64,000 bases of DNA from a virus. Below are positions 1 through 60,540 of the stretch, one piece after another. Location: positions 62,001-126,000 of IMG/VR virus record IMGVR_UViG_3300033183_000299; one strand, given 5' to 3'. How positions within the stretch are numbered: the first letter of the stretch is position 1; each line of letters begins with the position of its first letter. The translations under genes were made by a program, and so were the position numbers. A model generated the notes under the pieces. The model saw only the letters and a list, made by a program, of their open reading frames with translations. It was not told where the DNA came from and ran no database searches.

Positions 1-263
1 TTTGCAATAGTTTTTAGACCATAACCTTCCTCATAAGAACTGGTGAGATAATTTTTGAGAAAAAGAAAGTGGTCTGGATAAATCCTTTCGGCATTATTCC
101 GAATAAAAGATCTTTTATTTGATGATCTCGCAGAATTTCCCATTTGAGACACTCTTGCTGATGCATATTTTCTATATTCTTCCAAGAACTCTTCCGGAAT
201 TACCACTTCCTTTCCCTTGTCTGTGTTATAATAAATAACTTCTAAACATTCTTTTAAATTCAT
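1..263 (-). CDS. Partial gene, probable free-standing homing endonuclease inside the nrdJ split intein
   Basis: The first 87 codons are present; the rest lies beyond the window edge. The ATG at 263 follows a good AAGGAG site (274-280). The peptide starts MNLKECLEVIYYNTDKG and ends in EEGYGLKTIA, which looks like the start of a helix-turn-helix; the catalytic part would be outside the window. It lies directly downstream of an nrdJ N-half that ends in half an intein. In known fractured phage genes (NrdJ-1, gp41-1 type) a free-standing Vsr-like (EDxHD) endonuclease gene sits between the two intein halves. The endonuclease assignment therefore rests on context, not on visible catalytic residues. 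Translation is probably controlled by the hairpin at 262-312. Confidence 0.5.
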   Translation of the reverse strand, partial: MNLKECLEVIYYNTDKGKEVVIPEEFLEEYRKYASARVSQMGNSARSSNKRSFIRNNAERIYPDHFLFLKNYLTSSYEEGYGLKTIA

Positions 264-312
264 TTCGGGCTACACTCCTTACATTATTTTATTGTAAATA
301 GTGGCCCGAAAT
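262..312 (-). promoter_or_regulatory. RNA hairpin hiding the ribosome site, with late-type promoter motif inside
   Basis: On the minus strand, ATTTCGGGC (312-304) and GCCCGAAAT (270-262) form a perfect 9-bp stem whose 3' arm overlaps the ATG at 263. Inside it, CACT pairs with AGTG and TTACA pairs with TGTAA, so the AAGGAG Shine-Dalgarno lies in paired or nearly paired RNA. The motif CTATTTA (301-295), also found before structural genes, lies inside the 5' half of the stem. A transcript starting just downstream of it would lack the 5' arm and free the ribosome site. T4 uses this logic for I-TevI and MobE. Confidence 0.7.
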
Positions 313-322
313 GGCAAAATAA

Positions 323-1624
323 TTATTCAACGAATAAAAGAATGTCCTCTTCGGTTAAATGTGCCGCTTCAACATAGCCTCTGTTTTCAGTGAATACTCT
401 GTGGTCTGGGGTTAGGATTAATTCCTGTCCGTCCTCGGTTTCAATCTTGATGACATCGGCATCTTGTCTCGTAAGAAGACCCTCTTCAACCAACTCAAAC
501 TCCATTGACCCCGTGTTCTCATCAAATGATAAGACCTTTATTTCTTGACCTTCATTGACTTTTGAGACGATCTGTTCGATTGTCATTGTACCAGAATTCG
601 TCTCTATCTCAGTTGAGCCATCCAAACAACATGGGTTGCAACCCCAATCTTTGTCGTTCGAGAAGTAGAAACCGGGCTCTCCAGAGCGAGACTCTTCAAC
701 ACGCTTCCATAGATTCATGAATGTTGGCTTGTCGATCTTGTGACGCATTACAACTACAGAATTATTCGCTCTTCCTCGTTGTGGGTTGAGTTCCCACCAA
801 GCTCCGGCCTTTGCGCTAAGCATGTCTTCGTCATCAGCACTGAATAGACTAATGAGAGCGGCGCGACGAATACCGCCCGCCAAAACCGCATCCGCAATGT
901 GGCAGATGATATCATGAACCTCAATGGGTGAAAGCTTGTCTCCGTTTTCTTTCGCATCTAAAATTCCCTCCACTTTTACCAGACACTCCTTTAATGGCTG
1001 AGGGCCTGGTGCTTTACCACCTGATGTTACAAGTCTCGCACCTTTGGGGCGAATGTCCGAGAAGTCAAAACGCAACTTTGACGTTCCCTTAAAGTGAGAC
1101 ATCATAAGGGCTTTTACAGCATCGGCCCATCCTTCGATTGAGTCACCAATTAAGAAACGACGAGTTCTCTTTGATGAAGGCTTGCGAATCTCTGGGAGGT
1201 TATCTACATGATGCTTTTGCACTGAATAGCCCACACCTGTGCCTCCAAGAAGTAAGAACATGATCTCTCCGAACACTCGAGGATCATCAGCGGGTGCATA
1301 AGCGCAGTTAAAGATGCGGTTCGGCGAAACCTCAATTGGCTTACCTCCAAACTGCATCGATCTCATTGAAGGAAGAACCTTCTTGTCGAACACGAATTTG
1401 TAGTTCTCACGGATCTCTTGCTCGAGACTTGGAAACTTCTTGATGTGCATTTCCATATTACGAGTTACTAACTCGTTCCAGTTTTCTCGACGATTCTTAT
1501 CTTCAAGATATCGTGCATATTTCATGTGGACGGTGATGTCCGACAGAATCTTTTTCTCTAAATCCATACCTTTCTCCTGTAGTTTTTTGTAGTATTCTTT
1601 TTCCTTTTCTGTGTAGGTGTCCAT
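323..1624 (-). CDS. nrdJ: Class II ribonucleotide reductase, N-terminal part, ending in split-intein N half
   Basis: 433 residues. Residues 1-332 match adenosylcobalamin-dependent ribonucleotide reductase of the monomeric RTPR type: LPSMRSMQFGG, the redox cysteine region FNCAY (about residue 106), GGTGVGYSV, SGEPGFYFSN, and the finger-loop GCNPC that normally continues as GEI. The enzyme reduces ribonucleotides to deoxyribonucleotides for phage DNA synthesis. The reading frame then passes into an intein N half (326-628) and stops, so the catalytic core is incomplete. A second gene with the intein C half and C-extein is expected further down the minus strand, beyond position 1. The start at 1624 is 2 nt after the gp41 stop and probably coupled to it. 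No small (NrdB) subunit is seen here, which agrees with class II. Confidence 0.85.
   Translation of the reverse strand: MDTYTEKEKEYYKKLQEKGMDLEKKILSDITVHMKYARYLEDKNRRENWNELVTRNMEMHIKKFPSLEQEIRENYKFVFDKKVLPSMRSMQFGGKPIEVSPNRIFNCAYAPADDPRVFGEIMFLLLGGTGVGYSVQKHHVDNLPEIRKPSSKRTRRFLIGDSIEGWADAVKALMMSHFKGTSKLRFDFSDIRPKGARLVTSGGKAPGPQPLKECLVKVEGILDAKENGDKLSPIEVHDIICHIADAVLAGGIRRAALISLFSADDEDMLSAKAGAWWELNPQRGRANNSVVVMRHKIDKPTFMNLWKRVEESRSGEPGFYFSNDKDWGCNPCCLDGSTEIETNSGTMTIEQIVSKVNEGQEIKVLSFDENTGSMEFELVEEGLLTRQDADVIKIETEDGQELILTPDHRVFTENRGYVEAAHLTEEDILLFVE
326..628 (-). other. Split intein N-terminal half (NrdJ-1-like) within nrdJ
   Basis: 101 residues from C1 (CLDGSTEIET) to the stop. Block A starts with the nucleophilic Cys directly after the NPC of the extein. 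Block B is visible as LTPDHRVFT (residues 72-80), with the TxxH that assists the N-S acyl shift, and a NRGYV...LTEED segment follows. There is no endonuclease domain or C-terminal HN motif before the stop, so this is half of a split intein and not a truncated cis intein. Insertion after NPC is the site known for the NrdJ-1 split intein. The two halves would have to associate and trans-splice to give working reductase. Confidence 0.85.
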
Positions 1625-10429: not shown

Positions 10430-10461
10430 TAGGCGCTCTAGGATTTGAACCTAGGACCAAC
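10430..10461 (-). ncRNA. tRNA 3'-end fragment no. 1 (T arm plus acceptor 3' strand only)
   Basis: The sequence contains a complete T arm (CTAGG-TTCAAAT-CCTAG) followed by AGCGCCT-A, the 3' acceptor strand and discriminator base, then TTTTTTT. No D arm, anticodon arm or 5' acceptor strand is present; the promoter sits where they should be. The 3' end (AGCGCCTAT) is the same as that of the tRNA-CAT at 10952-11024, while the T stem differs with both sides changed. It could be a decayed tRNA or a small RNA. Confidence 0.6.
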
Positions 10462-10467
10462 ATCTAT

Positions 10468-10496
10468 ATTATAACATAATCAAAATGGTTTGTCAA
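10468..10496 (-). promoter_or_regulatory. Consensus promoter directly before tRNA fragment no. 1
   Basis: Perfect TTGACA (10496-10491), 17-bp spacer, perfect TATAAT (10473-10468). The expected start site is near 10461, at the first base of the tRNA fragment. Confidence 0.85.
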
Positions 10497-10542
10497 GTAA
10501 AAAAGTAAAGTTTTTTTAAAAAAGTTTATGAAGAACTTCATA

Positions 10543-10574
10543 TGTCCTCTACTTACTAATAGCGATGGAGGATA
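10543..10574 (+). promoter_or_regulatory. Possible hairpin over the ribosome site of the plus-strand HNH gene
   Basis: TGTCCTC (10543-10549) can pair with GAGGATA (10568-10574; one G-T pair), covering the GGAGGA ribosome site before the ATG at 10580. A second hairpin, TATGAAG-AA-CTTCATA (10527-10542), lies just upstream. No CTATTTA motif is found on this strand. Confidence 0.45.
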
Positions 10575-10579
10575 GTCGT

Positions 10580-10954
10580 ATGAAAAAATGTATTGTTTGT
10601 GAAAAAGAACTGGTTGGGCGCCAGACAAAATATTGCTCAAGCAAATGCAAAGGCAAAGATACAAATGTTAAGCACCAAAATTATCAAGCACAGCAAAAAA
10701 GAGGCATAGAGAGAAGAACTCTATTGATTGATAAGCTTGGGGGGAAATGTTGTAAATGTGGGTACAATAGAAACTCTAGCGCTCTCGCCTTTCATCACAC
10801 CGATGCTTCTAGCAAGTCTTTCCAAATTGATTTAAGACAGTGCTCTAACAGAAGCGAAAAGATCCTACTAGAAGAGGCAAAGAAATGCATACTAGTTTGT
10901 CACAACTGCCATGCTGAGATACATCACCCACATTTCAACATCAAAGAAGAATAG
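10580..10954 (+). CDS. HNH endonuclease with N-terminal zinc finger
   Basis: 124 residues starting MKKCIVCEKELVG; GGAGG lies 9 nt upstream. An N-terminal CxxC...C...C finger (CIVCEKEL, YCSSKC) precedes a second CCKCG knuckle, then LAFHHTDASSKSF and CILVCHNCHAEIHH, the ββα-metal (HNH) core. It is the only plus-strand protein gene in the window. Its stop codon overlaps the 3' end of the oppositely oriented tRNA-CAT by three bases. Free-standing HNH genes of this size are typical homing endonucleases that cut an allele lacking the gene; the target here may be the tRNA region, by position only. Confidence 0.8.
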   Translation: MKKCIVCEKELVGRQTKYCSSKCKGKDTNVKHQNYQAQQKRGIERRTLLIDKLGGKCCKCGYNRNSSALAFHHTDASSKSFQIDLRQCSNRSEKILLEEAKKCILVCHNCHAEIHHPHFNIKEE

Positions 10955-11024
10955 GCGCTGCTGGATTCGAACCAGCGACCAAGAATTTATGAGATTCCTG
11001 CGCTAACCGCTGCGCCAAGCGCCC
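10952..11024 (-). tRNA. tRNA with CAT anticodon (Met or lysidine-type Ile2)
   Basis: 73 nt, full cloverleaf: acceptor GGGCGCT/AGCGCCT (G-T at 1-72), D stem GCGC/GCGC, anticodon stem GGAAT/ATTCT with loop CTCATAA, T arm GCTGG-TTCGAAT-CCAGC, discriminator A, and no encoded CCA. The CAT anticodon is used by initiator and elongator Met and by Ile2 after lysidine modification; initiator hallmarks (three G-C pairs in the anticodon stem) are absent. Confidence 0.9.
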
Positions 11025-11030
11025 AAGGCT

Positions 11031-11566: not shown

Positions 11567-11595
11567 ATTATAACATAGTTTTGATAACTTGTCAA
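11567..11595 (-). promoter_or_regulatory. Consensus promoter directly before tRNA fragment no. 2
   Basis: Perfect TTGACA (11595-11590), 17-bp spacer, perfect TATAAT (11572-11567). The -35 hexamer overlaps the stop codon of the HNH gene ending at 11592. Confidence 0.88.
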
Positions 11596-12182
11596 GTATT
11601 TTTATAAGATTTTTGATATCTCTCTTTTCTGCAAGAATTTTTGTTTTTAGATTTGTAAGTCTCTAATTGAGAATCACAATTGTGACAGATTAGTCTGAGA
11701 TTATTTCTCATATTGTTAGATGCTCGACCATCAATATGATCCAAGATAAAATTCAACTCTTTCCCATTCCACTCATTCTTCATTCCGCAAATATCACAAC
11801 GCTCCGCCTGCTCTTTCAATATCCAAGGTTTTACAAAACGCATGTTTCTATCATTACAATATTCTTCTTGATTGCTTATGAAGTGAAGATATTTTTTTTG
11901 CCTTCTATGTTCAGACGAACAAAAATGAGAGCAGAACTTGGCATTCTTGCTAGGGCTTTTAAATTCACTCTTACAATACATACATTCCTTATGTCTTCCT
12001 AGACCAGCATTGTGAGGTTTCCAGCCAGAAGGATTCTTCTGTCTTATTGGAAGGGTTATTCCCAACTTTTTAGAAACTTTTCTAATATATGCTCCAGAGA
12101 CACCATAGAGTTTTCCGATTTTCTCATAAGATAGATTTTCTTCAAAGATCAGTTTTTCTAATTCTTCTTTTTTGTATTTCAT
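11592..12182 (-). CDS. HNH homing endonuclease with N-terminal helix-turn-helix
   Basis: 196 residues. The N-terminal helix-turn-helix (LSYEKIGKLYGVSGAYIRKV, about 17-36) is followed by a zinc knuckle ECMYCKSEF...KFCSHFC, then CDICG...LNFILDHIDGRASNNMRNNLRLICHNC, the HNH core with DHIDG and the asparagine loop. This combination is common in free-standing phage homing endonucleases. A GGAGG site precedes the ATG at 12182, and the hairpin 12175-12205 covers both. It lies between tRNA-Arg and the tRNA fragment at 11524-11561. Confidence 0.85.
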   Translation of the reverse strand: MKYKKEELEKLIFEENLSYEKIGKLYGVSGAYIRKVSKKLGITLPIRQKNPSGWKPHNAGLGRHKECMYCKSEFKSPSKNAKFCSHFCSSEHRRQKKYLHFISNQEEYCNDRNMRFVKPWILKEQAERCDICGMKNEWNGKELNFILDHIDGRASNNMRNNLRLICHNCDSQLETYKSKNKNSCRKERYQKSYKNT

Positions 12183-12210
12183 AACATTTCCTCCGCTATG
12201 AAATAAATAG
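12175..12210 (-). promoter_or_regulatory. Start-codon hairpin with overlapping late motif, HNH gene at 12182
   Basis: TATTTCATA (12205-12197) pairs perfectly with TATGAAATA (12183-12175), a 9-bp stem that buries the ATG in its 3' arm and leaves GGAGG in the 13-nt loop. CTATTTA (12210-12204) overlaps the first bases of the 5' arm, so a transcript from it would start inside or beyond the arm and lose the hairpin. Same design as 262-312. Confidence 0.75.
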
Positions 12211-12281
12211 ACTTAGAAAAAACATTTGAACCAATAAGCACCAAAAAAATAAGACAAACTTATTGGTTCAAATAATAGAAG

Positions 12282-12364
12282 TACACCAGGTAGGATTCGA
12301 ACCTACGATGGGAGTTACCCGTCGGCTTAGAAGGCCGATGCCATATCCACTAGGCGACTGGTGC
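12282..12364 (-). tRNA. tRNA-Arg (anticodon TCT) with long variable arm
   Basis: 83 nt: acceptor GCACCAG/CTGGTGT, D arm with GGCATC, anticodon stem TCGGC/GCCGA with loop CTTCTAA, a 15-nt variable region CGGGTAACTCCCATC that can form a GGG/CCC stem, T arm GTAGG-TTCGAAT-CCTAC, discriminator A, and no CCA. It reads AGA codons, which are frequent in this AT-rich genome. A type-II-like variable arm is unusual for Arg. Confidence 0.88.
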
Positions 12365-12716: not shown

Positions 12717-12745
12717 AATATAGCATGTTTTGTTCATGTTGTCAA
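12717..12745 (-). promoter_or_regulatory. Early promoter for the 87-aa gene
   Basis: TTGACA (12745-12740), 17-bp spacer, TATATT (12722-12717). Confidence 0.8.
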
Positions 12746-60328: not shown

Positions 60329-60540
60329 CCGTGTCTCCAAGTTCTTGCGAAGTCAATCGCAGTTTGGCCACCGATGTAGGTCATGGCGATCATCCCCCAT
60401 GTGTCGGCATCTAATCCAACGCCCAAATACAAAAGGGCAGTAGCGACAGCGAATACAAGGAGCTTTCTTGAGATTGCTCTTTCCATTACGCTATCGATAA
60501 TGCCCTTCTTTTCTTCTTTTGATTGTTTAGAGTCTTCCAT
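60325..60540 (-). CDS. Small membrane protein, holin candidate (71 aa)
   Basis: 71 residues. Charged N terminus, then two hydrophobic stretches (LLVFAVATALLYLGVGL and WGMIAMTYIGGQTAIDFA) joined by a short turn. YIGGQ..IDFAR resembles the C-terminal region of small phage holin-like membrane proteins. Size and topology fit a holin that would start lysis. No endolysin gene is visible in the window, which lowers certainty. Confidence 0.45.
   Translation of the reverse strand: MEDSKQSKEEKKGIIDSVMERAISRKLLVFAVATALLYLGVGLDADTWGMIAMTYIGGQTAIDFARTWRHG

Follow-up and report, generated by a model that had tools for sequence, protein, structure and literature searches.

The hairpin that covers the start of a free-standing HNH homing endonuclease gene in this phage probably serves as a translational lock, and the gene it controls probably belongs to a mobile cassette inserted in a resident tRNA-Arg(UCU) gene. 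Judging from its layout, the control device belongs to the known T4-type endonuclease locks, and the cassette that carries it looks like a variant not yet described in the open literature searched. All evidence for the lock and the cassette was obtained in silico. The window, the whole stretch of 64,000 nucleotides, corresponds to bases 62001-126000 of a 184-kb viral record. The elements at the start of the HNH gene are as follows:

11592–12182, minus strand: HNH endonuclease gene (196 aa) with an N-terminal HTH-like region, a CxxC...CxxxC zinc cluster and an HNH core, assigned by a PHROG match and invariant columns
12204–12210, minus strand: CTATTTA, late-promoter-like motif of the HNH gene, assigned by motif enrichment and a gp55-like late sigma in the record
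12198–12199, minus strand: putative late transcription start, placed about 6 nt downstream of the motif by analogy with the spacing in T4, and by folding of truncated RNA
12197–12205, minus strand: 5′ arm of the hairpin, TATTTCATA, pairing perfectly with TATGAAATA (RNA folding)
12184–12196, minus strand: hairpin loop of 13 nt, which holds GGAGG
12190–12194, minus strand: Shine-Dalgarno sequence GGAGG, in or at the hairpin loop (sequence and RNA folding)
12175–12183, minus strand: 3′ arm of the hairpin, TATGAAATA, with the ATG (12182-12180) inside (sequence and RNA folding)

The leader and start of the gene read CTATTTATTTCATAGCGGAGGAAATGTTATGAAATA on the minus strand. The perfect 9-bp stem that buries the start with GGAGG in its loop, described in an earlier note on this DNA, is present, and CTATTTA overlaps its 5′ arm, as was also claimed there, by 2 nt. 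Counting G-U pairs the stem comprises 12 bp, with a folding energy of -10.8 kcal/mol (z -5.42), and none of 200 shuffles was as stable. When the leader was shuffled 4000 times with dinucleotides preserved, 27 of the shuffles had a stem of at least 9 bp over the start. The predicted structure hides both the start codon and the ribosome site, whose opening costs 12.2 kcal/mol (folding from -60 to +25). For an RNA begun about 6 nt past CTATTTA this cost drops to 1.4 kcal/mol. The exact transcription start matters here, as an RNA from 12201 (4 nt after the motif) would retain an 8-bp stem of -6.7 kcal/mol, whereas one from 12199 would keep a residual structure of only -2.1 kcal/mol. The position of the enriched motif, the presence of a late sigma and the folding of truncated RNA are thus consistent with a late promoter placed such that late RNA would lack the 5′ arm.

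The window contains 21 copies of CTATTTA against 10.6 expected, and none of 100 shuffles reached 21. In sense orientation it stands at most 55 nt upstream of 21 genes (1.35 expected), many of them structural genes, and in antisense orientation upstream of one. Among the proteins of the record is a gp55-like late sigma, recognised by a match to the late sigma transcription factor family (phrog_234, 8e-6), and by analogy with T4 the motif would be this phage's own late-promoter-like motif, used late. The T4 motif TATAAATA was rejected for this role, with no sense and four antisense occurrences upstream of genes. No published description of CTATTTA as a late promoter was found in the open-licence literature searched. 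Other motifs are also enriched upstream of genes in the record, namely ACGTGTTA and CATGATACACTA, which perhaps represent an early or middle promoter class separate from CTATTTA; CGTGTTA lies upstream of 11 genes (0.5 expected).

The device recurs at other endonuclease genes of the genome. Gene starts of the entire 184-kb record were called by a simple script; of the 156 genes that begin with ATG and have a ribosome site, only four show a stem of at least 9 bp over that site. Three of these four also have CTATTTA, and all three encode endonucleases, of different families. At no other gene with CTATTTA in the record, non-endonuclease genes included, was a start stem of at least 9 bp found. The other of the two devices that the earlier note had counted in the window is real as well:

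261–313, minus strand: first device, at a PD-(D/E)XK-like ORF starting at 263, with the 10-bp stem CATTTCGGGC/GCCCGAAATG over the start and CTATTTA (295-301) in the loop

Its PD-(D/E)XK label derives from a weak resolvase-family match and inspection of the sequence. The third device, also with a 10-bp stem, is found at an HNH/endonuclease-VII-like gene at record position 60360 (G000:C1 59664-60360), 1.6 kb outside the window. Among 157 genes ranked by opening cost, the gene at 263 is first, the gene at 60360 fourth and the HNH gene at 12182 tenth. Truncation at the motif lowers the opening cost of the two other endonuclease genes from 17.1 to 6.2 and from 19.5 to 2.2 kcal/mol. A scan with the protein of the gene at 263 found no relative. 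The ribonucleotide reductase seems to be split by an intein whose two halves lie on either side of this free-standing endonuclease (window 1-1624, G000:C1 60441-62263); the N-part ends near 323 and the C-part resumes with ...VHNCEIGLRPF. Fractured genes with split inteins of a similar layout have been published. A LAGLIDADG endonuclease gene with Myb-like domains (G000:C1 48556, minus strand) has CTATTTA at -25 and no notable hairpin.

For the gene at 60360, the lock is kept in all four relatives (L158-L161; 89, 64, 53, and 50% identity), with CTATTTA at -27 to -30. The arms of these relatives have been re-matched (ACCACC/GGTGGT, CCTCCTTTTG/CAAAAGGAGG, AGCCTCCTT/AAGGAGGCT), and such arms, which change together, are the strongest evidence for selection on pairing. 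The idea of the earlier note that the device is selected is supported by these compensating changes, by its presence in three endonuclease families and by its absence from non-endonuclease genes with CTATTTA. The further suggestion that it moves with homing genes holds in one respect, as the whole leader of the HNH gene lies within a segment that a close relative lacks (see below). It fails in another: a single hairpin module copied between genes is ruled out by the unrelated arm sequences of the three hairpins.

The HNH protein itself matches a PHROG HNH endonuclease (1.1e-17) and shows invariant Cys/His/Asn columns across ten relatives, so that it has the nuclease core of a homing endonuclease. 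Pfam returned only weak matches (HNH_3, sub-threshold, and Sigma70_r4), and neither Pfam nor solved-structure searches gave a strong family. No GIY-YIG domain was matched, and membership in SegB is ruled out, the protein being HNH and not GIY-YIG. Viral contigs contain many full-length relatives with 39-61% identity; a scan of bacterial genomes yielded only four, all distant.

The leaders of these relatives (27 distinct leaders) were compared with those of 313 control genes. Start sites of the relatives are more structured (median 5.8 vs 3.5 kcal/mol in controls, p 6.5e-6). They are also more structured than their own shuffles (p 9e-9 by Stouffer, but p 0.026 by Wilcoxon). Both differences come from about ten leaders with strong hairpins, which the others lack. 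Strong hairpins occur in L042, L045, L047 (15 bp), L052, L059, L060, L061 (19 bp), L063, and L069, and a late-like motif at -15 to -45 is present in 19 of the 27, compared with 71 of the 313 controls (p 8e-7). In about 17 of the 27 the hairpin is weak or none is convincing, and a hairpin universal in the family is ruled out. Absence of the repeat in close relatives that keep the gene, named in the earlier note as evidence against the device, is seen to this extent at 39-61% identity, the closest gene-bearing relatives found.

Where present, the hairpins are unrelated in sequence and are built around the late-like motif of their own phage. The motifs in the leaders match those enriched upstream of genes in the same phages, ATATTTAT in G001, G003, and G004, and in G006, where the enriched motif is TATATTTG, the leader has TATATTTA. 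The enriched motif of G010 that is matched by its leader is perhaps CGTATAA. This correspondence indicates that the device has been re-built in each phage and is no copied module.

Fifteen of the 27 relatives (leaders of L037-L060) have a GGTTCG box resembling a tRNA T-arm 35-46 nt before the HNH start, while none of 118 other late-like sites in the genomes of four relatives has it; the counterpart in the window is GGTTCA at -50, within the GGTTCAAAT box at 12232-12224. The box is a candidate operator or homing-site mimic. It lends some weight to a different view of the leader, in which CTATTTA would belong mainly to the operator region of an endonuclease that represses itself, a behaviour known from I-TevI and its late promoter, and the inverted repeat would be the site of a dimeric protein and form no RNA hairpin. 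We consider this improbable, as the arms differ wholly among relatives and yet pair, which argues for RNA pairing and not for the site of one protein, and as in most of them the box lies outside the hairpin. Operator and RNA lock could, moreover, coexist.

A chance palindrome, or a start structure that attenuates translation without any timing, next to a coincidental CTATTTA, appears slightly less probable still. The opening cost alone is barely distinct from that of shuffles of the gene's own leader (p 0.049), and many HNH relatives miss a strong hairpin, both of which speak for such a view. Chance would, however, hardly place CTATTTA at three of the four strongest start stems of the record, all of them at endonuclease genes, nor does it fit with the folding z of -5.4 or with the co-varying arms in the relatives of the gene at 60360. 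Finally, processing by a host RNase at the hairpin, which would free the ribosome site with no new late start and has precedents in the RNase E-like processing of segB, segG, and Aeh1 mobE transcripts (PMC2988022), is very unlikely, as it gives no account of why most relatives have a late-like motif in the corresponding position.

For the translational lock, early RNA must reach the HNH gene from upstream. The relevant elements are:

12717–12745, minus strand: sigma70-type promoter upstream of an 87-aa gene (11 of 12)
12281–12364, minus strand: intact tRNA-Arg(UCU) preceding the HNH gene and differing from the type resident in close relatives (comparison with L157)
12224–12273, minus strand: 15-bp perfect inverted repeat followed by T6, between tRNA-Arg and the HNH gene, containing the GGTTCAAAT box

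The order on the minus strand is the promoter (12745-12717), the 87-aa gene, tRNA-Arg and the HNH gene. With this promoter upstream on the same strand, early read-through is plausible, and the promoter is its probable source. RNA reading through the 87-aa gene and then tRNA-Arg would carry both arms of the hairpin and, as folding predicts, would fold so that start codon and ribosome site are hidden. The 15-bp inverted repeat with T6 may itself terminate transcription; a similar repeat is seen in L054. Later in infection, RNA polymerase with the gp55-like sigma would start at CTATTTA, placed inside the 5′ arm according to motif and geometry, and the resulting RNA without this arm would allow a delayed translation of the HNH protein. 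The likely reason for such a delay is that the enzyme would cut the tRNA-Arg genes of co-infecting phages at a time when recombination can copy the cassette in.

The cassette is delimited by comparison with L157, whose flanks are about 95-96% identical in DNA and in which the resident tRNA-Arg is uninterrupted, with tRNA-Met after it and no HNH gene. Two further elements lie at or behind the end of the HNH gene:

11567–11595, minus strand: perfect sigma70-type promoter TTGACA-17-TATAAT (12 of 12), overlapping the HNH stop codon
11521–11553, minus strand: 3′ half of the resident tRNA-Arg, left as an orphan; it comprises variable loop, T arm and acceptor with 3 further nt, and all 33 bases match the uninterrupted tRNA-Arg of L157

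From the alignment with this empty site, the resident tRNA-Arg has been divided in two: its 3′ half now lies as an orphan downstream of the HNH gene, and upstream stands another tRNA-Arg(UCU), intact and clearly different. According to this comparison the cassette entered in the anticodon-arm region of the resident tRNA-Arg(UCU) and left this native half behind. Promoter, hairpin and HNH gene all lie within the segment absent from L157. Syntenic relatives, found via a neighbouring gene, also lack the HNH gene, and most keep tRNA-Arg(UCU) in place; among near relatives the gene is hence present or absent at one and the same site, as is typical of a mobile element. A second perfect TTGACA-17-TATAAT (12 of 12) is found at 10468-10496, and both of these promoters directly precede an orphan tRNA 3′ half.

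The link to tRNA-Arg extends to the family. An intact tRNA-Arg(UCU) adjoins the HNH gene in 18 of the 27 relatives, mostly 60-100 nt upstream and in three directly downstream, and in crAssphage cr116_1 the HNH gene adjoins tRNA-Arg as well. Going by these neighbourhoods, the family is located at tRNA-Arg(UCU) genes in diverse phages. In L051, L061, L069, and L070 an orphan T-arm half lies no more than about 45 nt behind the HNH stop codon, and another was recognised by eye in L047. L062 and L072 are mirrored, with a tRNA 5′ half ahead of the HNH gene and the intact tRNA-Arg behind it. The window-type tRNA-Arg also occurs without the HNH gene in L135 and, from length and position, probably in L136, L137, and L146. 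L134 and L135 have near-identical flanks and differ in their alleles, L134 having the resident type and L135 the endonuclease-linked type without the endonuclease.

A parallel insertion is found at the neighbouring tRNA-Met:

10951–11025, minus strand: intact tRNA-Met(CAU), different from that of L157
10565–10954, plus strand: second HNH ORF, antisense, touching the tRNA-Met 3′ end
10430–10458, minus strand: orphan tRNA 3′ half, where the 3′ half of the L157 tRNA-Met aligns

Here the second HNH ORF sits between a tRNA-Met that is not of the L157 type and the orphan 3′ half (window 10430-11025). The HNH gene at 60360 lies behind the gene for ribonucleotide reductase, and after it comes a displaced copy of the last 50 codons of this reductase (72% identical); a displaced reductase end follows the HNH gene in L158 and L159 as well. 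This arrangement suggests that such cassettes supply their target with a new end, the native one being left behind.

A wider interpretation, which we offer only tentatively, is that of a home-and-rescue family, whose endonucleases would cut a conserved gene (the anticodon arm of tRNA-Arg(UCU) or, in the sister cassettes, tRNA-Met and the ribonucleotide reductase end), bring a diverged and presumably uncuttable replacement, leave the native 3′ end as a scar and stay silent until late by an RNA lock re-built around the late promoter of each phage. If the neighbouring tRNA is indeed such a replacement, the cassettes would parallel in nature the cleave-and-rescue gene drives that have been engineered.

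Translational locks of this type are known from T4 I-TevI, I-TevII, I-TevIII, segB, and Aeh1 mobE (PMC2988022, PMC3014915), a precedent to which the earlier note makes no link. In the known cases, and as predicted for the present one, a hairpin at a homing endonuclease gene hides the ribosome site on RNA initiated upstream, and a late promoter prevents it from forming in late RNA. The present device differs in its late motif, CTATTTA and not TATAAATA, and in belonging to a distant uncultured T4-like phage, in which it is known from sequence and would control several unrelated endonuclease genes of other families in one genome. With this lock, a textbook mechanism of T4 would be found also in uncultured T4-like phages, with a different late-promoter sequence and at several unrelated endonuclease genes of one genome. 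Locks in unrelated endonucleases argue that phage homing endonucleases have repeatedly come under selection for being expressed late only.

For the cassette the closest comparison is SegB of T4 and T6, a GIY-YIG endonuclease in a tRNA gene cluster (PMC2988022 Table 1; PMC13096335), which adjoins tRNA-Arg in T4 and cuts inside tRNA genes in T6 (PMC2988022, PMC13096335). Both are free-standing, adjoin tRNA-Arg, are often near tRNAs and have a hairpin and a late promoter, reported for SegB and predicted here. SegB, however, is an unrelated GIY-YIG enzyme reported without a tRNA isotype preference, whereas the present HNH family keeps to tRNA-Arg(UCU), interrupts the resident copy and is accompanied by an entire replacement tRNA. 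Cassettes with this combination of a tRNA-Arg-specific HNH gene, a split resident gene and a replacement tRNA were not described in the open literature searched. The split-tRNA layout offers a concrete explanation, open to testing, of why endonucleases are drawn to the tRNA genes of phages and why near-identical phages exchange tRNA alleles. The cassettes also resemble the intronless homing of SegF and SegG (PMC2988022), in which the endonuclease gene travels with the neighbouring target allele by co-conversion, but the present cassettes retain the displaced 3′ end of their target, be it tRNA-Arg, tRNA-Met or ribonucleotide reductase, as an orphan behind the endonuclease gene.
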